Both the position numbers and the translations under genes were made by a program. The notes below the pieces were generated by a model. That model was not told where the DNA came from. It saw nothing but the letters and a program-made list of their open reading frames with translations, and made no database searches. From Salinibacterium sp. (GTDB taxonomy: Bacteria > Actinomycetota > Actinomycetes > Actinomycetales > Microbacteriaceae), in the NCBI GenBank assembly GCA_019638845.1, contig JAHBSZ010000001.1, positions 735,400-799,399 of the forward strand: DNA of 64,000 nucleotides. Reading direction: 5' to 3'. Shown piece by piece: positions 46,484 through 58,544 of the stretch (within the stretch, counting starts at the first letter, position 1; every line of letters begins with the position of its first letter).

Positions 46484-46515
46484 CACCGCATGATAGTGCG
46501 CAGCGCGAAACGAAA

Positions 46516-46545
46516 GGGGCCCGACCGCCGAAGCGGCCGGACCCC
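46516..46545 (-). terminator. Terminator of the permease/transcarbamoylase operon
   Basis: Arms 46516-46528 and 46533-46545 pair at 11 of 13 positions around a CGAA/TTCG loop. On the minus strand it follows the permease stop by about 12 bases and is followed by a short T-rich run. Confidence 0.65.
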
Positions 46546-46557
46546 CGGTTCACAGCC

Positions 46558-48492
46558 CTACTTCTTGGCAGCCGTGTGGTTGCGCCAGTTACCGTCGGCA
46601 ATCACGGGGTGCTTCTTCGCCATGTCCTCCTGGTAGAGCACACCCGGCACCACGCGCCCGTCCTCGAGTTCGACGGGGCCGCGGTACAGGCCAGCCGGCT
46701 CGCTCTCGATGACATGCAGCAGCACATCGAGCGGCAGGGTGTACAGCTCGCCAGATACCGCGACGCCGTCCTTCTCTACCTCGTACATGCCGGGGTGAGC
46801 GCCGCCGATGTCGTGCATCCGGTACTTCGGTGCCGTCTTCATCTCGGCGAGGAACTCGGCGCCCAACAGGTTGCCGTGCAGTCCCAGGCCGCGCATGAGG
46901 GTTCCGTTGACGAAGAGCAGGTCATCCTGAAGCACGACCTCCTTGTCCTTGCGATTCGCCCAACCGAAGCCGAGCAGCAGCACCGCGAGGAACACGTAGC
47001 CGAGCGTGACACCGAACGATGCGTTGATCCCCACCTGAACGGCGTTGATCAGACCGAAGAACGACAGCACAGCACAGATGCCGGTGGTGATCGCGGCCGC
47101 GTACAGGCGCCGGTCGATCACGAACACCGTGATTGCACCGAGCAGCACGCCCGCGAGAACAGCACCCGAACCGAACAGGCGCAGCCCCTCGTAGATCACT
47201 CCGTTGCCCGCGAGTTTGTCGAAGCCGACCGCCGCCGCGTTGGTGCCAGCGGCACCGAGCGCATTGTCGATGAGGCCGGATGCCCACTGCGCAAGGCTTG
47301 GCAACATGGCGATCACGATCGCGGGTGCGTAGCGCAGCGCGCTCACGTTGGTCGCCTGCGATCCGATCACCAAACCGATGTACAGCAGAATCGGCACCAG
47401 CGCCTGGATCGGGAACACCGCGAGGAACACACCCACGAGTCCGCTGAAGCAGACCACCGCGACCACGATCCCAGTGACGAGCGAGTAGCCGATACGGCCA
47501 CCGACCTTCTTCCAGCCCGGGTGGCCGATGTAGACGGCCGGCGGGAACGGCGAACCGAGGAACGCACCGATGATGGCGCCGAGGCCGTCAGCGGTCAGGA
47601 TCGCGCGAGCCGAGTAGCGGTCACCGGCCGCGGCAGCCGACTCCACGTTGGTCATGGCCTCCGTGAAGTTGTAGATGCCGAGCGGGATGGCCGTCGCGAG
47701 CAGCGGCGCAATGTCTTGCAGACCGGCCAGCACCTCACCACCCGGAATCGGCAGGTACAACCCGATCGTCGAGACGGACTCGGCGACGGCGCTGGGCTTG
47801 AGGATGTTCGACCAGCCGGCCAGCACCGCGATCCACGCGATCACGGTGCCCGCGACGACGGCGACAAGCCCGACGGGGGCGTTGAACGGCATCTTCCTGA
47901 AGCCGAGCCAGCCGACGAGGATGACCCCGAAGGTCACGAACGCGATCCACGGTGCCTCCCACATCTGGGCGGCAGGGCTCATCGAGATGAACGTGATCGA
48001 GATACCGGCTAGGGCACCGAGCATCGCGGCTCGCGGCGTCCATTTGCGAATCCACGGCCCGAAGACCGCGCCGAGCAGAATGATGAGCCCGACGATCAGA
48101 GCCCACGCGAGCCCGGCATGCCACGCCTTGAGCGGGTCGCCGGACTGCAGGTACACCGGCAGCATGACGACGAGCACGACGATGAACATGTGGGGAACGC
48201 TCGGCCCATACGGCAGGGCGGCGACGTCCGTGCGGTTCTCCCGGCGGGCCAGCCGCCTCGCGAGAATCGCGTACCAGATGTTGCCGAGCGGCAGCGCGAT
48301 ACCCAGCGCGGGCAGGATGCGCCCGAAGACAACATCGTTCGGCAACTGGATCACCGCCAGACACAAGCCGGACAGAACGATGACATTAAGCAGAACGTTG
48401 GTGCCGAGCCCGAACAGCCCGTTCCAGTCGCCCTTGACCCACCACTTGATCTGCACCGGTGCAGAAGTGGTGGTCGCGGTAGTGCTACTCAT
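46558..48492 (-). CDS. NCS2-type nucleobase permease fused to an allophanate-hydrolase-C-like (GGCT-fold) domain
   Basis: A 644-residue fusion. Residues ~25-510 form a NCS2 permease (xanthine/uracil family) with about 14 hydrophobic segments and the conserved TEAMTNVESAAAAGDRYSAR and FLGSPFPPAVYIGHPGW. Residues ~525-640 (LLFVNGTLMRGLGLHGNLLG, FLAEMKTAPKYRMHDIGGAH, VSGELYTLPLDVLLHVIESE, VELEDGRVVPGVLY) resemble the C-terminal domain of allophanate hydrolase. ATG 48492 has GGAG upstream. It ends a six-gene operon with carbamate kinase and AllFGH genes. The tethered domain may process the imported compound or sense it. Confidence 0.88.
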   Translation of the reverse strand: MSSTTATTTSAPVQIKWWVKGDWNGLFGLGTNVLLNVIVLSGLCLAVIQLPNDVVFGRILPALGIALPLGNIWYAILARRLARRENRTDVAALPYGPSVPHMFIVVLVVMLPVYLQSGDPLKAWHAGLAWALIVGLIILLGAVFGPWIRKWTPRAAMLGALAGISITFISMSPAAQMWEAPWIAFVTFGVILVGWLGFRKMPFNAPVGLVAVVAGTVIAWIAVLAGWSNILKPSAVAESVSTIGLYLPIPGGEVLAGLQDIAPLLATAIPLGIYNFTEAMTNVESAAAAGDRYSARAILTADGLGAIIGAFLGSPFPPAVYIGHPGWKKVGGRIGYSLVTGIVVAVVCFSGLVGVFLAVFPIQALVPILLYIGLVIGSQATNVSALRYAPAIVIAMLPSLAQWASGLIDNALGAAGTNAAAVGFDKLAGNGVIYEGLRLFGSGAVLAGVLLGAITVFVIDRRLYAAAITTGICAVLSFFGLINAVQVGINASFGVTLGYVFLAVLLLGFGWANRKDKEVVLQDDLLFVNGTLMRGLGLHGNLLGAEFLAEMKTAPKYRMHDIGGAHPGMYEVEKDGVAVSGELYTLPLDVLLHVIESEPAGLYRGPVELEDGRVVPGVLYQEDMAKKHPVIADGNWRNHTAAKK

Positions 48493-48524
48493 TTCTTTGC
48501 TCCAATCGGGGGTTTGTCGCGTTA

Positions 48525-49214
48525 TCAGGTTGCCGAATCGACCGCAGCCAGCAGGCTCGTCGACGTACCGACCCAGCCGACGATTCCGCCCTGGGCCTTG
48601 AACATGTTGAGCGCCGCGTCGTAGAACTCCTGAAAGTACGACCCGGTGCAGTCGGAAAGGATGAGGCATTCGAAACCGCGGTCGTTCGCCTCGCGGGCGG
48701 TCGACTGCACGCACACCTCGGTGGTGACGCCGGTGATGATGAGCTGGGTGATCGACTTCGCCCGCAGGATCGTCTCGAGGTCGGTTCCGTAGAACGCACC
48801 CTTGCCGGGCTTGTCGAGAATCACTTCCCCCTCGATGGGCGCGAGCTCCGGGATGATTTCGTGGCCCGCCGAGCCGCGGGTGAGCAGGCGACCCATCGGG
48901 CCCTCATCCCCGATACGCAGGCTCGGGTTGCCGCGGTCGCGCTTGGCGGGGAAGAGGTCGGTGAGGTCTTCGCGATGACCCTCGCGGGTATGGATGACCG
49001 TCCACCCCTTCTCGCGGAACAGGTCGAGAACGGCCCGGGTCGGCTTGATCGAGCCGCGCAGGGTCGAGACATCGTTGCCGAGCGATTCGCCGAACCCGCC
49101 GGCCTCCATGAAGTCCCGCTGGAAGTCGATACAGACCAGCGCGACGTGCTCAGGGTCGAAGGTGAACTCGTAGGGTTCCGCCGGCACCGAGATGGAGCCT
49201 TTTGTCTTGTTCAT
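48525..49214 (-). CDS. Isochorismatase-fold cysteine hydrolase (amidohydrolase of N-carbamoyl-type substrates)
   Basis: A 229-residue cysteine hydrolase. The catalytic triad is Asp in LVCIDFQRDFMEAGGFG, Lys in LDKPGKGAFYGTDL and Cys in TGVTTEVCVQSTAREAND. Relatives hydrolyse N-carbamoylsarcosine, biuret, ureidoacrylate or nicotinamide. In this operon a biuret-, oxalurate- or ureido-type substrate is most likely. ATG 49214 overlaps the carbamate kinase stop (ATGA). Confidence 0.88.
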   Translation of the reverse strand: MNKTKGSISVPAEPYEFTFDPEHVALVCIDFQRDFMEAGGFGESLGNDVSTLRGSIKPTRAVLDLFREKGWTVIHTREGHREDLTDLFPAKRDRGNPSLRIGDEGPMGRLLTRGSAGHEIIPELAPIEGEVILDKPGKGAFYGTDLETILRAKSITQLIITGVTTEVCVQSTAREANDRGFECLILSDCTGSYFQEFYDAALNMFKAQGGIVGWVGTSTSLLAAVDSAT

Positions 49215-50188
49215 GGGTGACCTTTCGTGACGATGGTTCCCGCAACGCCGGCCAGGGCATCCGGGAGTTTGGGGATAGACGTGATGATGGCGCGCGAGCC
49301 GCCAGCCTCGATGAAGTCGATTGCCGAGGCAACCTTGGGCCCCATCGACCCCGCCGGAAACTGCCCAGCGGCGAGGTGCTCCCGCATCTCGGCAACACCC
49401 ACCACGTGCAGGGCCCGCTGGGTTGGGGCGTTGAAGTCGACGTACACCTCGTCGACGCCGGTGACGAGCACGAGCGTCTCGACCCCGATCTGACCGGCCA
49501 GCAGGGCTGAGGCGCGATCCTTGTCGATGACCGCATCGACCGGATGCCATCCCGTAGAGTCACGCACGACCGGGATGCCGCCACCCCCGGCGGCGATCAC
49601 GACCGCTCCGCTATCCACGAGCACGCGAATCTGGCGCGCCTCGATGATCGTCTTCGGGATCGGGCTGGCAACGACCCGGCGAAATGTGTCTTCGCCCATC
49701 TCTGTGACCGCCCAACCCTCCTCGGCCACACGCAGGCGAGCAACCTCGGCGGTGAGCTGCCCACCGATCGGCTTGGTCGGCTTCTCGAAGGCCGGGTCGT
49801 CGCGGTCGACTTCGGCATGGGTGAGCACCGCGACGGCGCGGGTCTCGAGGCCCCGGGCATCCAGTGCGGAATCGATCGCGACCGCGAGCATGTGGCCGAT
49901 TCCGCCCTGCGAGTCGGCGACGGCAAGCCACAACGGCAAGGCTGGCAGCCCTTCGACCATGGCATCGGGTGCCACGAGTTCGCCGCGGCGCAGAATGTAG
50001 CCGACTTGGGGTCCATTGCCGTGGGTGACGACCGTGGTCCAGCCGTCATTCACGAGTCCCGCTACCGACTCGGCGAAGCGGCCCGCCCGTTCGAGTTGAC
50101 GGTCGACCGACCCCGGCTCACCGTCGAGCACCAGGGCGTTGCCGCCGATCGCGATGAGGACTGTCCCCGTACCGGATGCGGCGTTCAT
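49211..50188 (-). CDS. arcC: Carbamate kinase
   Basis: A 325-residue amino-acid-kinase-fold enzyme that makes ATP from carbamoyl phosphate and ADP. Signature segments are LIAIGGNALV, VVTHGNGPQVGYILRRGE, VIAAGGGGIPVV, VIDKDRASALLA and FPAGSMGPKVASAI. It is coupled on both sides by ATGA overlaps, to the DUF1116 gene upstream and the isochorismatase gene downstream. In an AllFGH operon it matches the role of the E. coli ybcF product, phosphorylating ADP with carbamoyl phosphate from oxamate transcarbamoylase. Confidence 0.94.
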   Translation of the reverse strand: MNAASGTGTVLIAIGGNALVLDGEPGSVDRQLERAGRFAESVAGLVNDGWTTVVTHGNGPQVGYILRRGELVAPDAMVEGLPALPLWLAVADSQGGIGHMLAVAIDSALDARGLETRAVAVLTHAEVDRDDPAFEKPTKPIGGQLTAEVARLRVAEEGWAVTEMGEDTFRRVVASPIPKTIIEARQIRVLVDSGAVVIAAGGGGIPVVRDSTGWHPVDAVIDKDRASALLAGQIGVETLVLVTGVDEVYVDFNAPTQRALHVVGVAEMREHLAAGQFPAGSMGPKVASAIDFIEAGGSRAIITSIPKLPDALAGVAGTIVTKGHP

Positions 50189-51582
50189 TGTCCCGACCTT
50201 TGGTCGGCCAAGAACCGCGTCGCCTTGAGGAAGACCTCGCTCGGTGCCGTGACGATCCCGGCGCCGATCTGGCCCACGCCGGCCTTCTTGTGGGCGATGC
50301 CGGTGTTGATGAGCGGCAGCACGCCGGTGTCGAGCACCTTGAGCACGTCGATACCGGAGGGCGTACCCGCGAAGTTCAGCGGCGGCAACGGATACGCCGG
50401 GTGGGGCCCGAGCGTGATCCGTCGCATCGAGCGCGTCGCGTCGAGCGCGTCGTTCGGAGTGCCCCCGACAAACTGGGTGATCGCCGGGGATGCCGCCATA
50501 GCGAAGCCGCCGAGCCCGAGGGTCTCGGTGATCGCGGAGTCCCCGAGGTCGGGGTTGGCGTCTTCGGGTCCGTAGCCGGGAAAGAACAGTCCGTCTGCCG
50601 GGCCGACCGGAGTCGTGAACCATTCGTCGCCGCTGCCCGCCACCCGCAGCCCGAACTCCACGCCGTTGCGCGCCATCGCGGTCACGAGGGTGGAGTTCTC
50701 GACGCCGATTGCGGCATCCAGCGCGAGCTTCGCGGCCGCCATCGACATGTTCAGCGCGAAGTGGTCGTTGCCCGCAAGGAAGGCGAGCACGGCGACGCTC
50801 TCGTCATTCGGCTCGAGCGCCGCGATCACCGGAGCGAGCCGCCTGGCCAGCAGCGACGTCGCGGCAACATTCCGGTTGTGGCCCTCGTCACCCATCGACA
50901 GGGCCTGACCGATGAGAGAGGTGACGTCGATCGGTCCGTACTCGACGAGCGCCCGATCGAGAACCGGGCCGAGCACGTCGCGCATCCAGGTGAGTCGGTC
51001 GATCACCTCCGAGTCGTAGGCGCCGAACCGCAGTACTTTGCCGAGACCCTCGTTGAGGCTGGCGAACGCCTGCCGCCCGTCGTCGAGGTCGGTTGCGACC
51101 AGCACGGGCATGGACGGCGCAATCACGCCCGCCATCGGGCCGACAGCACCGTGGTGGTGGCACGGGGCGACGGCGATCTCGCCGGCATCGAGCATCCGGA
51201 TCGCCTCGTCGGCCGTGCTGGCCCAGCCCTCGAACAGCGTCGCTCCGATGAGCGCGCCGCGCATGGGGCCGCACATGCGTTCCACCTCGATCGGTGGGCC
51301 GGCGTGCAACAGCGTGCGATCCTTCGCGATGCCGGGCATTACCTCGCGGGCTGGGCGCACCCGGGTGAGCTGCGGTTTGACCGCGTGCACTCGCGCGATC
51401 GCGACCGCGTTCGCAGCATCCGTCGTCTCGTTGTCGAGGGTCAGGGCGAGCCGGGCGACGTCTGCGTCGCCGAAAGCCGGGGGGCGCCAGTCGAGCTGGG
51501 TGACCTGTGAGGCGGGTACCCCCTCGACGATGAGCGGGAGTCCGGCGTTGATGACGCTAAGTGCGTCGGTGAGGATGCTCAT
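50185..51582 (-). CDS. allG: DUF1116 protein, oxamate transcarbamoylase subunit AllG-like
   Basis: A 465-residue soluble protein of the YlbE/DUF1116 family. Family segments are ERMCGPMRGALIGATLFEGW, VAPCHHHGAVGPMAGVIAPS and GDEGHNRNVAATSLLARRL. In E. coli, AllF, AllG and AllH together were reported to form oxamate transcarbamoylase, which converts oxalurate and phosphate to oxamate and carbamoyl phosphate. ATG 51582 and the 3' end both overlap neighbours by four bases, so this is the third gene of a tightly coupled set. Confidence 0.9.
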   Translation of the reverse strand: MSILTDALSVINAGLPLIVEGVPASQVTQLDWRPPAFGDADVARLALTLDNETTDAANAVAIARVHAVKPQLTRVRPAREVMPGIAKDRTLLHAGPPIEVERMCGPMRGALIGATLFEGWASTADEAIRMLDAGEIAVAPCHHHGAVGPMAGVIAPSMPVLVATDLDDGRQAFASLNEGLGKVLRFGAYDSEVIDRLTWMRDVLGPVLDRALVEYGPIDVTSLIGQALSMGDEGHNRNVAATSLLARRLAPVIAALEPNDESVAVLAFLAGNDHFALNMSMAAAKLALDAAIGVENSTLVTAMARNGVEFGLRVAGSGDEWFTTPVGPADGLFFPGYGPEDANPDLGDSAITETLGLGGFAMAASPAITQFVGGTPNDALDATRSMRRITLGPHPAYPLPPLNFAGTPSGIDVLKVLDTGVLPLINTGIAHKKAGVGQIGAGIVTAPSEVFLKATRFLADQRSGQ

Positions 51583-53057
51583 GCCGCGTCGCCCTTCGCT
51601 GCGTGCGCGGCCGCGACCAAGCGGGCCGCCGACGCGTTGGTCTCGGCCAGAATCACGCCTGCCCCCGTCAGGATGTCGCGCTGCCGCGCCAACCCTTGCG
51701 GATCCGAGGCCGTGCCACACACCGAACCGACCACCACGAGCTCCCTTCCTTGCGTCTTCGCGGCATCGCGAGCCGACGCCACCGCTACCGCTACCGGAGT
51801 GGCGGGGTCGGCGTGGGCGCCGTGGCCCAGCACCAGGTCGAGCAGGATGGTGCCGACCGTCTCATCGGAACCGGCCGCCGCTATCTTCTCGGCGCGCGAC
51901 TCGGGGTCGATCATCGGATGCGGCTTGCCCGCCGTGTACTCGTCGTCACCGAGGTCGATGACCTCCGCCTCGACACCGGCTCGCTTAAGAATGATTTTCG
52001 ATTCGGATGCCAGCGTGCCGCCGGTGTACAGACCGAGAATGCGGCCGCTCGGCACCGTGATCGGCTCGAGATCGGTGACCGTAAACGGATGCCCGGCCAG
52101 CTCCGCTGCCGCCAGCGCGCCACCCTCCAGCGTTCCGCGCACCATGACGCCGTCACTGTCACTGTCTTCTTGCCCGAGGAAACAGGCCACGACCGGGATG
52201 CCGCCTGCGGCGATCGTCGTGAGTCGAGCGAGCAGTTCGGTCGCGACCGCGGCCGCAGGAGGTTTGGAGACAACCATGATCACAGTGGTCGCGGCATCCT
52301 CGACCAAGAAGTCGAGGGCGAGGTTCGACATCAGCCCTCCGATGTCGACCGACAGGTCGCGCCCTCCGACACCGATCAGTTGCGACACCCCGGCACCCGC
52401 CGTGTCGAGCAGGCGTGACACCTCTTGTGCGCCGGTGCCCGACGCCGCGACGATGCCGACCGACCCTGGGGCGACCACGTTCGCGAACCCGAGCGGCACT
52501 CCGTCGATGATCGCCGTTCCGCAGTCCGGGCCCATCATGAGAAGCCGCTTCTCGACCGCCAACTGTTTGAGGCGCAGTTCGTCGGCGATGTCGACGTTGT
52601 CGGAGAAGCAGAGCACGTGCATCCCGTCGCGCAGCGCCTGCTCGGCAACCATCGGGGCGTAAGTGCCGGCGATCGAGACCGCAACGAGGTTCGCGGGATG
52701 CTCGGCCTGGCGTGCCGCGGCGATGCCTTCGCGAATCGTGCCCGGCCGCTGCTCCTCAGAACTCGAACCCCCGTCGACCGCAGTGAGAGCTGCCTGTGCG
52801 GCGTCGAGTGCCTCCGTCACCGTCTCGGCGTCGGAACCGCGCACGACAAACACGAGGTCGTCAGGGGCGGCCGCCAGACCGTCGGGCAGCATGCCGGACT
52901 CCGCGAGAATGCCGAGGTTCGATGGCGTCGCCATCACCGCGCCCACCCGCACAATGCCGTCACGCTTCTCGGTGGTCGAGGCGATCGCCATGAGTGCGAC
53001 CGAGTCGCGGTAGAAGTGCGGCAAAACCCGCGACAAGAGAATGTTGGAGTCGGTCAC
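51579..53057 (-). CDS. allF: FdrA-family acyl-CoA-ligase-like protein, AllF-like
   Basis: A 492-residue protein of the FdrA family, similar in fold to the succinyl-CoA synthetase alpha subunit: AVMATPSNLGILAESGML, VLCFSDNVDIADELRLKQLA, LLMMGPDCGTAIIDGVPLGF, GIVAASGTGAQEVSRLLD. The GTG start at 53057 overlaps the AllH stop (GTGA). The known partners AllG and AllH flank it, so an oxamate-transcarbamoylase-type role is the simplest reading. Confidence 0.9.
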   Translation of the reverse strand: MTDSNILLSRVLPHFYRDSVALMAIASTTEKRDGIVRVGAVMATPSNLGILAESGMLPDGLAAAPDDLVFVVRGSDAETVTEALDAAQAALTAVDGGSSSEEQRPGTIREGIAAARQAEHPANLVAVSIAGTYAPMVAEQALRDGMHVLCFSDNVDIADELRLKQLAVEKRLLMMGPDCGTAIIDGVPLGFANVVAPGSVGIVAASGTGAQEVSRLLDTAGAGVSQLIGVGGRDLSVDIGGLMSNLALDFLVEDAATTVIMVVSKPPAAAVATELLARLTTIAAGGIPVVACFLGQEDSDSDGVMVRGTLEGGALAAAELAGHPFTVTDLEPITVPSGRILGLYTGGTLASESKIILKRAGVEAEVIDLGDDEYTAGKPHPMIDPESRAEKIAAAGSDETVGTILLDLVLGHGAHADPATPVAVAVASARDAAKTQGRELVVVGSVCGTASDPQGLARQRDILTGAGVILAETNASAARLVAAAHAAKGDAA

Positions 53058-53914
53058 GCGACGCCTTCCTCGGTTCGAGCGGCGAGGTCGGCTCGCAGCG
53101 TTTCGGTCAGTCCGATCAGGAGATCGACACCGGAGGTCGCACCCCAGCGGGTCGCGTGCTCCACAATGAGGTCGGCCGGGCGGCCAGCCGAAAATCCGTC
53201 GACGAGTTCGTGCACATGCTCCGAGAAGCGACCGGATGCCGCGGCCACGAGGTAGTGCCGTGACGCAGTCGTGGTTGCCTCAAGCAGCGGGGCGGTCGCC
53301 CCCGAGAGAACAGACGCAGCATCCCCTCGCCCGAGAACCGCGAGCGCCGCGAGGCAGCCGACCAGAAGGTCGTCACCGGTCGGAGTGGTGCCGGGGCCCG
53401 CGCCGATCACCTCGGCGACGACGCGCCGCGGCTCACGTGCGAGGGCCGCGGAAGCGAGGTCGGCGGCCCGCGAGCGCACCCGCGCGAGCCCTCCGTCGAA
53501 CGACGAGGAAGCGCTTGGGCGTGCGTCTGCGAGTGCGCGGGCCACCGCGAGGATCGTTGCCCCGCTGAGTGTGGTCGGCTTCAACACGAGGTCCACGGGT
53601 TGCATCGCCGCCGCTGTCCACGACGACAGATCGACGGTCGCGCCAACCCCGGCGGTCGCGAGATCGCCACGAACTCGAGCGAAGTGGGCGCGGTTCGGGA
53701 TGCTCAGTCCGCCCGGTGTCACGCCGGCCGCGGCATCTGTAATGGTCAGCAGAGTGGACCGATCGGCAGGTTGCAGCACGATGGCGGATTGTCCTAGATG
53801 GACTACTCGGGCCGGGCGTGTCGCGACGATCCCGTGCAGGCTCGCATCGATTCGCCCCGAACCGGGTGCTGCAATCGTTGCCGCCATCGCCATACTCATG
53901 AATAGTAGGGTCAT
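53054..53914 (-). CDS. allH: DUF2877 protein, AllH-like
   Basis: A 286-residue protein of the YlbF/DUF2877 family, with LHGIVATRPARVVHLGQSAI, GPGTTPTGDDLLVGCLAALA and HYLVAAASGRFSEHVHELVD. It is the first gene of the AllHFG-arcC-hydrolase-permease operon. The start could be ATG 53914 or ATG 53899; neither has a ribosome binding site. A TACTAT hexamer lies just before 53899 and could be a -10 box for a short-leader message. Divergent from the PucR gene. Confidence 0.88.
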   Translation of the reverse strand: MTLLFMSMAMAATIAAPGSGRIDASLHGIVATRPARVVHLGQSAIVLQPADRSTLLTITDAAAGVTPGGLSIPNRAHFARVRGDLATAGVGATVDLSSWTAAAMQPVDLVLKPTTLSGATILAVARALADARPSASSSFDGGLARVRSRAADLASAALAREPRRVVAEVIGAGPGTTPTGDDLLVGCLAALAVLGRGDAASVLSGATAPLLEATTTASRHYLVAAASGRFSEHVHELVDGFSAGRPADLIVEHATRWGATSGVDLLIGLTETLRADLAARTEEGVA

Positions 53915-53989
53915 CGTTCACTGTCTGGCCCGGTCCGGAATGGACGACAAACGTGGCCCCGAATGTCCGAAAGAGACAAAGGAGACGGT

Positions 53990-55489
53990 ATGAGCACCAT
54001 TACCGTTCGGGAGGTGCTCACCCTGCCCGTGCTTCAGGGAACCTTCGTTGTCGCCGGCCACGGCGGCCTAGGGCGCGCGGTCACCGGCGTGAATGTGATG
54101 GAAGTGCCCGACATCGAGTCGTTCGTCAAGGGAGGCGAACTGCTTCTCACCACCGCATACCCGCTGCGCGAGCATCCGGAGGATCTCGGCGCACTCGTGC
54201 GCACCCTGGCGCGGCTGGGTTTGGCCGGTCTCGCGGTGAAGACCGGGCGATACCTCGAGAGGCTTCCCGGCGAGGCACTGGCGATCGCCGACGAACTCGA
54301 CTTTCCCGTGATGCTCGTGGCCGAGCACACTTCGTTCAACGAGGTCATCGGCGCGGTGCTGGCGGTCGTGCTCACCGAATACGGTGCGGAGCCGGCCAGC
54401 GCCGAGGCGATCCGGGAACGGCTGACCGGGGTCGCGCTGGCGGGTGGTGGGCTCGTCGAGATCGCCAGAACCCTCGCCGGCGCGCTGGGGCGACACGTCG
54501 CCATCCTCGATCCGGACGGTGCTCTGCTCGGCGCCGGAGGCGCTGGCGAGGTGCCGGATGCTGCACCCCCGAGTGATGCGGCTACCTGGTCATTCCCGAT
54601 CACTGTGGGCGGCATCGAACGCGGTCGCATCGTCGTGCGCGGCGACCACGAACCGACGCTTGGCCAGCGTCGGCTCATCCGGCAAGCGTGTTTCGCGGGG
54701 GGAATGCACATCGCCCAAGCCGCCGCCAGCCTCGAACTCGACCGGCAGATGAGAGTGCTGTTCCTGGAGGAACTCCTCACCGGTCAGGTGATCGACGAGT
54801 CGCTCGTCCGCGAGCGATCCCGACTATTCGGCTGGGACTTCGGGCCGGATCACGTCGTTGTGCTCGCACGCACCAGCAACGAGTTATCCGACGCCGCGGT
54901 CGGGCGGGCTGCAGCCTCGGAGTTGGAACGAGGGTCGGTCGCCTGGGCGCGCGGCCACGAAGCCGTTGCGATCGTGTCGGCGGCGTCGATTCCGGCAGGC
55001 ACGTCCGACTGGCCGCTTGCGGAGCACTGGGGTGAGGCTCTGAAACGCCGGGGGGCCGGGCAGGTCACCGTTGCCACCGGAAGCGTTGCCGCGTCAGTGT
55101 CGCAACTCGCGGTGTCGCACACCGCAGCCCGGTCGGCTCTCGCCATCGCGCACGCCACCGGACGCACCAACGTGCGCTACGACCAACTCGTGCTCGAGCG
55201 CGTAATCCTCGCTGTGCCGGATGCACTCCTCGCCGAACTCGTCGACCACGAGCTTGGTCCGCTCATCGCGGTCGACGCCACCACGGGGTCAGAACTCTGC
55301 GCGACACTGGAGATGTTCCTCGGGACCGGGAACGCCGCGGACGCTGCTCGGCGGTTGTTCATCCACTACAACACCATGAAGCATCGGATGGCACGGATCT
55401 CCGACCTCATCGCCGTCGACCTGCACGATCCGCGCGCCCGACTGACCCTCGCGTTCGCGCTTCAGGTACGCAAGCTGATCGCGGGTTGA
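53990..55489 (+). CDS. PucR family transcriptional regulator
   Basis: A 499-residue regulator with an N-terminal PucR/purine-catabolism domain (VREVLTLPVLQGTFVVAGHG, IESFVKGGELLLTTAYPL) and a C-terminal PucR-type HTH (NAADAARRLFIHYNTMKHRM). PucR-like regulators control purine, allantoin or related nitrogen catabolism. ATG 53990 has GGAG upstream; an in-frame ATG at 53963 is less likely. It is divergent from allH and probably activates the operon in response to its substrate. Confidence 0.9.
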   Translation: MSTITVREVLTLPVLQGTFVVAGHGGLGRAVTGVNVMEVPDIESFVKGGELLLTTAYPLREHPEDLGALVRTLARLGLAGLAVKTGRYLERLPGEALAIADELDFPVMLVAEHTSFNEVIGAVLAVVLTEYGAEPASAEAIRERLTGVALAGGGLVEIARTLAGALGRHVAILDPDGALLGAGGAGEVPDAAPPSDAATWSFPITVGGIERGRIVVRGDHEPTLGQRRLIRQACFAGGMHIAQAAASLELDRQMRVLFLEELLTGQVIDESLVRERSRLFGWDFGPDHVVVLARTSNELSDAAVGRAAASELERGSVAWARGHEAVAIVSAASIPAGTSDWPLAEHWGEALKRRGAGQVTVATGSVAASVSQLAVSHTAARSALAIAHATGRTNVRYDQLVLERVILAVPDALLAELVDHELGPLIAVDATTGSELCATLEMFLGTGNAADAARRLFIHYNTMKHRMARISDLIAVDLHDPRARLTLAFALQVRKLIAG

Positions 55490-55507: not shown

Positions 55508-55903
55508 TTAGGCCGTCACCCGGTCCACCGCGAGGCCGCTCGAGGCTGCTGTCAGTCGCGAGTCGTTGGTCCACAGAGCCTCACAGCCGTTGAGTTGCGC
55601 CGCCGCCAGGTGGAGCGCGTCAGCGGTGCGCAGAGAGTGACGTGCGCGTAGCTCGGCGGCGCGAGCGAACTCGGGAAGTCCGAGCGACAGCATGTCACAA
55701 CGCGCAAAGACATTTGTGAATTGGTCACGCAACGCGAGGTTGTCACGCTTGAGCGGCCCGACCAAGCACTCCATCACGACCAGCGGGGAGATTGCCAAGC
55801 GGCTATGCGGGTCATGAAGGTGGCGCCGAACCGCATCGCCACGGGGACTGTGATCCTCAACCGCATAGATGAGCATGCAGCTGTCGAGGTAGATCAATCC
55901 CAC
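55508..55903 (-). CDS. vapC: VapC-like PIN domain toxin
   Basis: A 131-residue PIN ribonuclease. The four acidic active-site positions are visible: Asp in IYLDSCMLIYAVED, Glu in LVVMECLVG, Asp in LRTADALHLAAA and Asp in WTNDSRLTA. It follows the antitoxin gene with a 10-base overlap. The toxin probably cleaves tRNA or rRNA under stress. Confidence 0.92.
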   Translation of the reverse strand: MGLIYLDSCMLIYAVEDHSPRGDAVRRHLHDPHSRLAISPLVVMECLVGPLKRDNLALRDQFTNVFARCDMLSLGLPEFARAAELRARHSLRTADALHLAAAQLNGCEALWTNDSRLTAASSGLAVDRVTA

Positions 55904-56148
55904 GATTCGCGTTCACGTGCGATTTGCTCGTCCAGCTCTTCGGGCGTTCTTGACGCGCCTGCGGGTAGCGGGTGGGCGTGGAGCCAGTTGATCAGCTCGG
56001 CCCCGGAATGCTCGGCTTTGTCGTCGATGGGGACTATCCGCACGAGCGGCTTTCCGCGTTTCGCGATCACGACATCCTCACCGCTGGTTGCGGCGGCGAT
56101 CAGTTGAGAGAGACGATTGCGGGCGTCGAGGATGTTGACCGGTTCCAT
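55894..56148 (-). CDS. Phd/YefM-family antitoxin
   Basis: An 84-residue antitoxin with an N-terminal DNA-binding Phd fold (VNILDARNRLSQLIAAATSG, EDVVIAKRGKPLVRIVPIDD) and a C-terminal toxin-binding tail rich in Glu/Asp. ATG 56148 has GAGGAG upstream. It pairs with the VapC-like toxin downstream; Phd with PIN is a known mixed pairing. Confidence 0.9.
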   Translation of the reverse strand: MEPVNILDARNRLSQLIAAATSGEDVVIAKRGKPLVRIVPIDDKAEHSGAELINWLHAHPLPAGASRTPEELDEQIARERESWD

Positions 56149-56324
56149 CCCGCGCTCCTCAATCTGGCGTTGTTTATGGCTAGGTTGAGTATACATCCGA
56201 CAGTATGCGGAGTTCTGGGCGTGCGGTGCAGCGCGTTTCTACAGGCAATGCGCGTGCAACCGCGGTCCGTATCTGCCTCCGATTAGCGACTTCACCCGCC
56301 CAATAAAGGCCCGCTCGGCCCGGT

Positions 56325-57649: not shown

Positions 57650-57695
57650 GGCCCCATTATTTGGGAAGTTACTCGCGAACTGTAAGCACTAATTC

Positions 57696-57713
57696 TGTAC
57701 ATAAATATGTACA
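57696..57713. promoter_or_regulatory. Operator palindrome upstream of the Phd-MNT/HepT operon
   Basis: TGTACAT-AAAT-ATGTACA, a perfect palindrome with 7-bp arms in an AT-rich stretch. It lies 20 bases before the ATG and just upstream of TACACT (57721-57726), a possible -10 box. The Phd-like N-terminus of the encoded fusion is the obvious candidate to bind it. Confidence 0.6.
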
Positions 57714-57732
57714 TATTAGATACACTTTCTCC

Positions 57733-58209
57733 ATGGATACTCACGTGCTCGGCATTGCGGAGGCTCGCAGTGGTCTCTCCACGCTTATCGACGGCATGAC
57801 GACTAATCCATCCGACATTGCGATCATCGGCTCGCACCGAAAGCCCGAGGTGGCGCTCATCCCTTATGCGACATTCCTCGATTTGAAAAACCGCGCGGAG
57901 GGCGCCGCCGTCTCTGTGGGTCTCAAAGCCGTGCGGGCGCACGCCGACCTTATCCGCCGAATTGGGTCGACGTGGGGCATCCATGACATCGCTGTATTCG
58001 GATCCGTGGCGCGAGGGGAAGAGGGAGCGGACAGTGACATCGACTTTCTCGTCGATGCCGAGCCGGGTCGATCGTATTTCGACATCGCCGGTTTCGAGAT
58101 CGACCTTGAACAGCTACTCGGACGCCCGGTTGACGTTCTCACGCGCGACGCGCTCGACCCGGCTCGCACACGGGACAAGACCATGCTGGACGAGGCAATC
58201 CTGCTGTGA
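57733..58209 (+). CDS. Phd/YefM-like antitoxin domain fused to a minimal nucleotidyltransferase (MntA-like)
   Basis: A 158-residue fusion. Residues ~1-55 look like a Phd/YefM domain (HVLGIAEARSGLSTLIDGMT, EVALIPYATFLDLKNRAEG). Residues ~70-158 form a minimal nucleotidyltransferase with the full G90-S91-x10-D102-x-D104 motif and a third acidic residue in GRPVDVLTR. MntA-type proteins add AMP to the HepT toxin. The Phd half would supply DNA binding. It overlaps the HepT gene by four bases (GTGA). Confidence 0.9.
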   Translation: MDTHVLGIAEARSGLSTLIDGMTTNPSDIAIIGSHRKPEVALIPYATFLDLKNRAEGAAVSVGLKAVRAHADLIRRIGSTWGIHDIAVFGSVARGEEGADSDIDFLVDAEPGRSYFDIAGFEIDLEQLLGRPVDVLTRDALDPARTRDKTMLDEAILL

Positions 58210-58544
58210 GAGCCTCAGACCGGATCGACGGGCTCCTCGATGACCTTGAACAAACGTTGCACTCCGCAGATCAGTTGGTCGCACGTGGTCGGGAAGCGTT
58301 CGACGCTGATTTCACCGTGCGCCTCGCATTCGAGGCCTTGAGCAATCGCGTCGGCGAAGCCACGAAGCGTCTCGTCCAACTCGACCCCGACCTGTTTACA
58401 GAGACGGAGTGGACGTTCGCGTCGCGGCACCGTGACAAGGTCGTACACCACTACAACTCGATAGATGTCGAAGTACTGTGGTCGACCGTCGCCACCCATT
58501 TCCCCCGGTTGCGCGAGTTGGCACACTCGAAGCGGCCCCGCTAA
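58206..58544 (+). CDS. HepT-like toxin (HEPN ribonuclease)
   Basis: A 112-residue all-helical HEPN protein. The RX4HXY motif is present as R76-x4-H81-x-Y83 in RHRDKVVHHYNSID. The Tyr is the known AMP-acceptor in the HepT/MntA system. GTG 58206 overlaps the fusion gene; the stop TAA overlaps the methyltransferase start by one base. The pair forms a probable type VII toxin-antitoxin module. Confidence 0.9.
   Translation: MRASDRIDGLLDDLEQTLHSADQLVARGREAFDADFTVRLAFEALSNRVGEATKRLVQLDPDLFTETEWTFASRHRDKVVHHYNSIDVEVLWSTVATHFPRLRELAHSKRPR

Follow-up and report, generated by a model that had tools for sequence, protein, structure and literature searches.

The window analysed here, a stretch of 64,000 nucleotides from Salinibacterium sp. 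(family Microbacteriaceae; GenBank assembly GCA_019638845.1, contig JAHBSZ010000001.1, positions 735,400 to 799,399 of the forward strand), contains a minus-strand operon of six genes, allH-allF-allG-arcC-hydrolase-permease, with a divergent pucR, that we consider probably to be a catabolic operon for triuret in which the carbamoyl group of the substrate would be kept as ATP. Beyond this locus, we give roughly even chances to the broader hypothesis that the operon belongs to a widespread, phosphorolytic and ATP-yielding route for triuret and cyanuric acid, in which an entry enzyme (TrtA or AtzD), decarboxylation by an AH_C domain, AllFGH acting as a (carboxy)biuret carbamoyltransferase and carbamate kinase would replace BiuH and AtzF. 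The locus comprises the following features:

46515..46546, minus strand: terminator-like stem-loop of 14 pairs, after the permease gene
46558..48492, minus strand: distantly NCS2-like permease over residues 1 to about 520, with an AH_C domain fused to it (residues 526-640; PF21986, 90.3 bits)
48525..49214, minus strand: isochorismatase-like cysteine hydrolase, TrtA type (PF00857; PDB 6XIX, 266 bits; residues; tree)
49211..50188, minus strand: arcC/allK, carbamate kinase (NF009007, 313.7 bits, cut-off 266; TIGR00746, 314 bits, below its cut-off of 358)
50185..51582, minus strand: allG (DUF1116; PF06545, 303 bits; solved relative 3CLQ)
51579..53057, minus strand: allF (FdrA; NF004760, 425.7 bits, just below the cut-off of 433; PF00549)
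53054..53914, minus strand: allH (DUF2877; PF11392, 75.1 bits)
53933..53945, no strand: candidate operator palindrome 2, a perfect GTCC-N5-GGAC (paired spacing)
53965..53977, no strand: candidate operator palindrome 1, one mismatch away from GTCC-N5-GGAC (paired spacing)
53990..55489, plus strand: pucR, PucR-family regulator (PF07905, 117.9 bits; HTH_30; GGDEF_2; intergenic alignment)

All seven frames are open, overlaps of 4 bases occur at allH/allF, allF/allG, allG/arcC and arcC/hydrolase, and a gap of 32 bases separates the hydrolase gene from the permease gene; these measurements bear out the gene order, the overlaps among the first five genes and the divergent pucR given in a preliminary description of this DNA. 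The three subunits AllF, AllG and AllH are all present (AllF slightly under its subfamily cut-off), and AllFGH and carbamate kinase are 34-49% identical to their counterparts in Escherichia coli K-12 (AllF 38%, AllG 49%). A conserved ATG in the alignment probably places the start of allH at 53893, and conserved starts likewise favour 53990 for pucR, suggesting it ahead of an upstream ATG at 53963 that is also open. Four terminator-like sites were found where 3.4 are expected, and the one with the longest stem lies at the operon end.

The hydrolase points to triuret. Its best match in the PDB is 6XIX, a structure named TrtA in a study that also lists the positions separating TrtA from BiuH (PMC7948467). 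The residues F35, N41, E160, Y187 and I205 give the TrtA letter at five of five discriminating sites, none of the five matches the BiuH consensus (Y, Y, D, T, V), and the catalytic D24, K129 and C162 are all present. The hydrolase reaches 271 bits against the BiuH equivalog NF050097, short of the cut-off of 370, and in a tree of 62 rows its clade groups at 99/89 with the solved Herbaspirillum TrtA and a Rhizobium 3841 gene (assigned to TrtA by residues in this analysis), with the BiuH side separated at 100/98. A BiuH identity is rejected on the five residues and the tree, which together argue for an enzyme of the triuret-hydrolase (TrtA) type; the cysteine amidohydrolase of the preliminary description is thereby both upheld and given a more specific type.

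The same five sites were scored at 93 allG loci, some of them from identical or near-identical genomes (e.g., L012 and L076), in hydrolases of at least 180 amino acids (n = 41; 9 fragments among 69 matches were dropped). The TrtA type is found at all five sites in 36 of these hydrolases and at four sites in one more; that of L157, with three sites, is intermediate, and three are of BiuH type, all in Nitrospira-type loci. The intermediate lies on a plasmid of Peptoclostridium acidaminophilum (L157:4544-15147) along with PucR, two permeases, DUF2877, fdrA, DUF1116 and arcC; where TrtA has E160 and Y187 it carries H and F, the tree places it with the BiuH side, and it may act on a different substrate.

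Conservation of the gene set provides a second line of evidence. Among genomes of the genus, 2 of 27 encode allG, as do 8 of 398 in the family (the Salinibacterium genome counted in both). Eight other Microbacteriaceae allG loci were examined with wide flanks (one via the genus search and seven via the family search), and the arrangement appears to go beyond chance because five of the eight keep all seven genes in order. Another, L014, keeps pucR-allHFG-arcC, alongside which it has a ring-opening AtzD-type enzyme, a permease of NCS1 type and AH_C as a gene of its own; L017 and L018 are different allFGH loci. Terrimesophilobacter mesophilus DSM 19267 (L076) carries the same operon as the window. 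The preliminary description had proposed such a comparison of neighbourhoods and would have taken a scrambled order as fatal to its pathway; the order was found to be kept.

When genome contigs were scanned with an alignment of seven AllG sequences, at least 581 places were confirmed; profiles built in this analysis were run on the best 80 of these, hence the closest, and on other loci. Among the closest 80, a TrtA-type hydrolase, intact or fragmented, occurs with AH_C and carbamate kinase at 25 loci and with BiuH in addition at two more; five have TrtA without AH_C, eight an AtzD-family gene, one BiuH only, four AH_C and the kinase only, and seven the kinase only. Where allG and a TrtA-type hydrolase share a locus (n = 37), AH_C is found at 33 loci (at L125 within an AtzF-like frame) and carbamate kinase at 35. 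AllFGH and carbamate kinase occur together with a TrtA-type hydrolase and AH_C in Actinomycetota, Pseudomonadota, Chloroflexota and Nitrospirota. The pair of hydrolase and permease also occurs without AllFGH: a search of 394 genomes of the class matched the permease part in 32, and at 14 of 16 such loci examined with wide flanks (from 30 matching genomes, with the Salinibacterium genome and G690 set aside) a TrtA-type hydrolase adjoins the permease.

Exchange of the entry enzyme is the third line of evidence. AtzD stands in the place of TrtA at L014, L098 (Huaxiibacter) and L090 (Rubneribacter), with scores of 523-580 bits (cut-off 360) and the motif GCVNDFTR, as in the AtzD of strain 3841; carboxybiuret is the reported product of both TrtA and AtzD (PMC7948467). 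To examine the exchange, 46 of 95 AllG rows (the TrtA loci together with L014, L098 and L090) were placed in a tree, in which the distribution of AtzD and TrtA needs at least three changes and a single AtzD clade is rejected (approximately unbiased test, p-AU 5e-5) for a group defined by gene content, yet after the larger AllG tree had been viewed. L014 and L098 are nested inside TrtA clades; L090 lies near the Peptoclostridium locus L157, whose hydrolase is off TrtA at two sites, and is the weaker case. AtzD takes the place of TrtA on two branches and probably on a third. The one allantoin-linked reference among the AllG rows, E. coli K-12, formed a long branch.

Six AtzD-family loci with another motif (L112, L113, L119, L123, L145 and L149; GGVNDFTR or GGVNDYTR, 433-473 bits) were excluded from this tree, and carbamate kinase was undetected at all six. 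Four of them are Rokubacteria loci (L112, L123, L145 and L149) in which allF-allG adjoin the AtzD-family enzyme, and at L123 a molybdopterin hydroxylase and a protein of cytidine-deaminase type are present as well; these loci perhaps serve a pyrimidine-barbiturate-ureidomalonate route using AllFG.

What else these organisms encode bears on where AllFGH might act. Searches of the Salinibacterium genome, covering 13 contigs and 2.96 megabases, gave no match to urease alpha or AllD and no BiuH or full allophanate hydrolase over cut-off; three amidases were found. A panel of 21 entries carrying the module, 20 of them genomes and one a plasmid, was chosen by hand. One entry exceeds the cut-off for BiuH, two do so for full allophanate hydrolase and one for AllD, which makes oxalurate; allantoinase is found in 3, the Salinibacterium genome among them. 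Because BiuH, allophanate hydrolase and AllD are rare in module genomes, AllFGH would most simply act after carboxybiuret.

We infer every reaction in this organism from what was computed, namely gene content, the TrtA-type residues, conservation and the exchange of TrtA with AtzD. We hypothesize that triuret would be imported by the permease and converted by the TrtA-type hydrolase to carboxybiuret with release of one terminal ammonia, as residues and phylogeny predict, and that the permease-fused AH_C would probably decarboxylate carboxybiuret to biuret. AllFGH would then convert biuret and phosphate to carbamoyl phosphate and urea, the substrate to which we lean, or alternatively carboxybiuret and phosphate to carbamoyl phosphate and allophanate. 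Carbamate kinase would use carbamoyl phosphate and adenosine diphosphate to form ATP and carbamate, which yields ammonia and carbon dioxide, and PucR would respond, at the two palindromes, to a compound of the pathway.

The domain at residues 526-640 of the permease is the C-terminal domain of allophanate hydrolase, a second biuret-type clue that the preliminary description did not name. The AH_C of allophanate hydrolase acts on a similar N-carboxy group. An AtzF would combine an amidase domain with AH_C; in the operon AH_C stands alone, fused to the permease, and a search of the whole genome found no second AH_C. In the relatives checked it is mostly a separate gene, fusion to the permease being confined to the window's clade among those loci, and it lies inside an AtzF-like frame at L125, L088, L100 and L127. 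The permease part (up to about residue 520) has zero Pfam matches up to E 10, PF00860 included; a profile of 44 relatives matches NCS2 at 88% when larger sets are used on both sides (reversed control 0.2%, NCS1 control 0.3%), and one of 13 relatives against three NCS2 proteins gives 2.8%. We thus call the permease distantly NCS2-like, and the NCS2 fusion of the preliminary description survives as a fusion, to AH_C, and not as a plain NCS2 label. An identity of AH_C with the known decarboxylase TrtB was considered and rejected, as in strain 3841 the TrtA-type gene is followed instead by a small gene of cupin type, of which AH_C would be an analogue; the cupin gene has only weak ChrR-type matches in NCBIfam and is probably TrtB.

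A related set is frequent in E. coli. Of 5,426 complete E. coli genomes, 1,547 carry a 7.2-kb set in the order hydrolase-allH-fdrA-allG-arcC-AH_C-permease, 1,543 of them with a cover of at least 80%; it occupies 1,488 chromosomal and 127 plasmid places. The probiotic strain M-17 (L161) has a chromosomal copy, and L072, a plasmid copy, is split into several genes. Its hydrolase is 61% identical to that of the window; AH_C is encoded separately, the permease carries the annotation cytosine permease and the regulator is of LysR type, in contrast to the fusion and PucR of the window. Over the stretch compared, the E. coli AH_C protein differs by one residue from PDB 5C5Z, which is labelled merely glutamyl-tRNA amidotransferase and which we take to be c4763 of strain CFT073. 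The E. coli set is known as GR29, for which a Rut-like nitrogen route has been proposed (PMC12928451).

Several observations weigh against triuret as the substrate or against the proposed route. The nearest NCBIfam model to the hydrolase is that of BiuH, albeit below cut-off, and the TrtA references form long branches that the tree program flagged; the NCBIfam AtzD model also passes the six loci with the other motif, and so may fail to tell AtzD from barbiturase. AH_C is undetected at L081, L105, L122, L134, L157, L090 and L098 (L098 and L105 being short contigs) and was not found elsewhere in the genomes of L090 and L098 (for L157, in the plasmid searched). Of the closest 80 allG loci, 28 (13 of the 45 with full flanks; some of the 28 on short contigs) carry none of TrtA, BiuH, AtzD, AH_C and carbamate kinase, and the many allFGH loci without these partners suggest that AllFGH serves further substrates. 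Were biuret the substrate of AllFGH, urea would be left over, and urease is found in 7 of the 21 panel entries and not in the Salinibacterium genome. Finally, contig C6 of that genome encodes urate oxidase, allantoinase, 8-oxoguanine deaminase and a fusion of an AtzH-like domain to an amidase (L192:16868-18376, near the other three), and the uricase and allantoinase keep an allantoin-derived ureide among the candidates. As to the missing AH_C, carboxybiuret also decarboxylates spontaneously with a half-life near 20 min (PMC7948467), which would explain the absences, as a fit and not a proof.

Salvage of oxalurate by AllFGH and carbamate kinase, although unlikely in our estimate, is the foremost rival, given that family membership and the biochemistry of E. 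coli AllFGH point to it (PMC11326118), that the genome holds the uricase and allantoinase just named, and that the co-located allFGHK of nitrifiers have been so interpreted (PMC12625717). The statement in the preliminary description that no allantoin-pathway gene is nearby holds locally and fails for the organism, in which these genes lie on another contig. Against oxalurate stand the missing AllD match and the scarcity of AllD and allantoinase in the panel, the 4-base overlap that ties the hydrolase gene to arcC, and the company of TrtA or AtzD and AH_C that AllFGHK keep across phyla. A biuret pathway, in which the hydrolase would convert biuret to allophanate and AllFGH would phosphorolyse this to carbamoyl phosphate and carbamate in place of allophanate hydrolase, ranks next and is likewise improbable: BiuH as the best NCBIfam model, the origin of AH_C in allophanate hydrolase, the genome's lack of any full allophanate hydrolase above cut-off and an AtzF-like amidase beside the hydrolase-permease pair at five other Actinomycete loci (5 of the 14 above: L058, L063, L065, L066 and L067) would all suit it, whereas the five discriminating positions are all TrtA-type, TrtA is reported to be weaker on biuret by four orders of magnitude (PMC7948467) and the three AtzD genomes have no notable BiuH-family enzyme to make allophanate from biuret (best matches of 20, 73 and 50 bits among the three, none above 73). 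As a separate observation, the amidases of L058 and L065 match allophanate hydrolase in its amidase part in an NCBIfam scan and lack AH_C.

We hold least likely that the hydrolase acts on some other carbamoyl amide (e.g., a pyrimidine product, as suggested for GR29) with AllFGH acting on its product. The hydrolase does share family similarity with RutB (99.5 bits), the Rut-like route suggested in PMC12928451 would agree, and nucleobase-type permeases occur in relatives; however, the RutB score is far under the cut-off of 378, the TrtA-type residues are retained, and exchange with a cyanuric acid hydrolase would be ill-suited to a pyrimidine product unless the exchanged enzymes are barbiturases. 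Barbiturate itself, which the preliminary description had listed among its candidates, is rejected for this locus, as the operon has no ring-opening enzyme. The broader proposal of that description, a ureido substrate of biuret or cyanurate type other than oxalurate whose carbamoyl group goes to ATP, fits the comparative evidence from residues, the recurrence of the module and the AtzD exchange, and triuret is the member of this group that we favour.

The region between pucR and allH is consistent with control by a pathway compound. A pair of GTCC-N5-GGAC palindromes, each with at most one mismatch and exactly 32 bp apart, is found in 9 of 11 pucR-allH stretches, the AtzD variant L014 included (L012 has one copy and L080 none), compared with about 0.1 matches per shuffled stretch, for a pattern picked after the alignment had been viewed and with L015 and L016 near-identical. 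Single copies are not rare (2 found in the window, 2.65 expected). A TTGTCC-N6-GGACAA operator was rejected, the window having one match, with two mismatches, away from the locus (1.87 expected). Because the candidate operator is kept with a different entry enzyme at L014, we suggest that the TrtA and AtzD versions of the operon have a common inducer.

Other genes flank the operon. A large helicase with PLD and DUF3427 domains at 42918-46246 matches type IV methyl-directed restriction enzymes at 729 bits and adjoins a NUDIX protein matching the candidate defence family PDC-S07. Directly after pucR, at 55508-56196, a PIN-domain protein and a Phd/YefM-type antitoxin form a toxin-antitoxin-like pair, and an MNT-like nucleotidyltransferase is paired with a HepT-like protein at 57661-58544.

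Triuret is a waste product of uric acid and of urea fertiliser. It has been reported in human urine, and the published routes for triuret and cyanurate that we found are hydrolytic (PMC7948467). If the proposed pathway is correct, bacteria would draw energy besides nitrogen from triuret and cyanuric acid, a seven-gene operon without an established role would gain a testable function in 1,543 of 5,426 complete E. coli genomes, as would the solved structure 5C5Z, and the allFGHK genes of nitrifiers could be reread from oxalurate to triuret or biuret. AllFGH would then be a family of ureide carbamoyltransferases with several specificities.

The operon shares parts with several known systems. With the triuret pathway known from Herbaspirillum and from Rhizobium 3841 (TrtA, TrtB, BiuH and AtzF; PMC7948467) it has in common the TrtA-type hydrolase, predicted from residues and tree to form carboxybiuret, and it differs in having AllFGH and carbamate kinase instead of BiuH and AtzF, and AH_C where strain 3841 has the cupin. 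The three subunits and the carbamate kinase are those of the allFGHK genes of E. coli K-12, where AllFGH is an oxamic transcarbamylase (PMC11326118); unlike that set, the one described here lies outside an allD/allC/allE context and within a set of triuret/cyanurate type. In comammox Nitrospira, trtA and biuH stand beside allFGHK, and biuH occurs with allFGHK in ammonia-oxidising archaea (PMC12625717); the same families thus lie side by side in comammox Nitrospira, there seen as two pathways (triuret/biuret and oxalurate) and with BiuH present, and in the two Nitrospira loci that we examined AH_C is not fused to a permease, unlike in the window. The available text of the triuret/biuret, AllFGH and DUF1116/DUF2877 literature that we found does not state a link of TrtA or AtzD, AllFGH and carbamate kinase as one phosphorolytic pathway; the parts and their co-location in nitrifiers are published, and joining them into one pathway seems to be new. 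The cyanuric acid pathway, lastly, shares the carboxybiuret intermediate, and its AtzD takes the place of TrtA in relatives of the operon, whereas the operon of the window has neither AtzD nor the AtzE, AtzG and AtzF genes.

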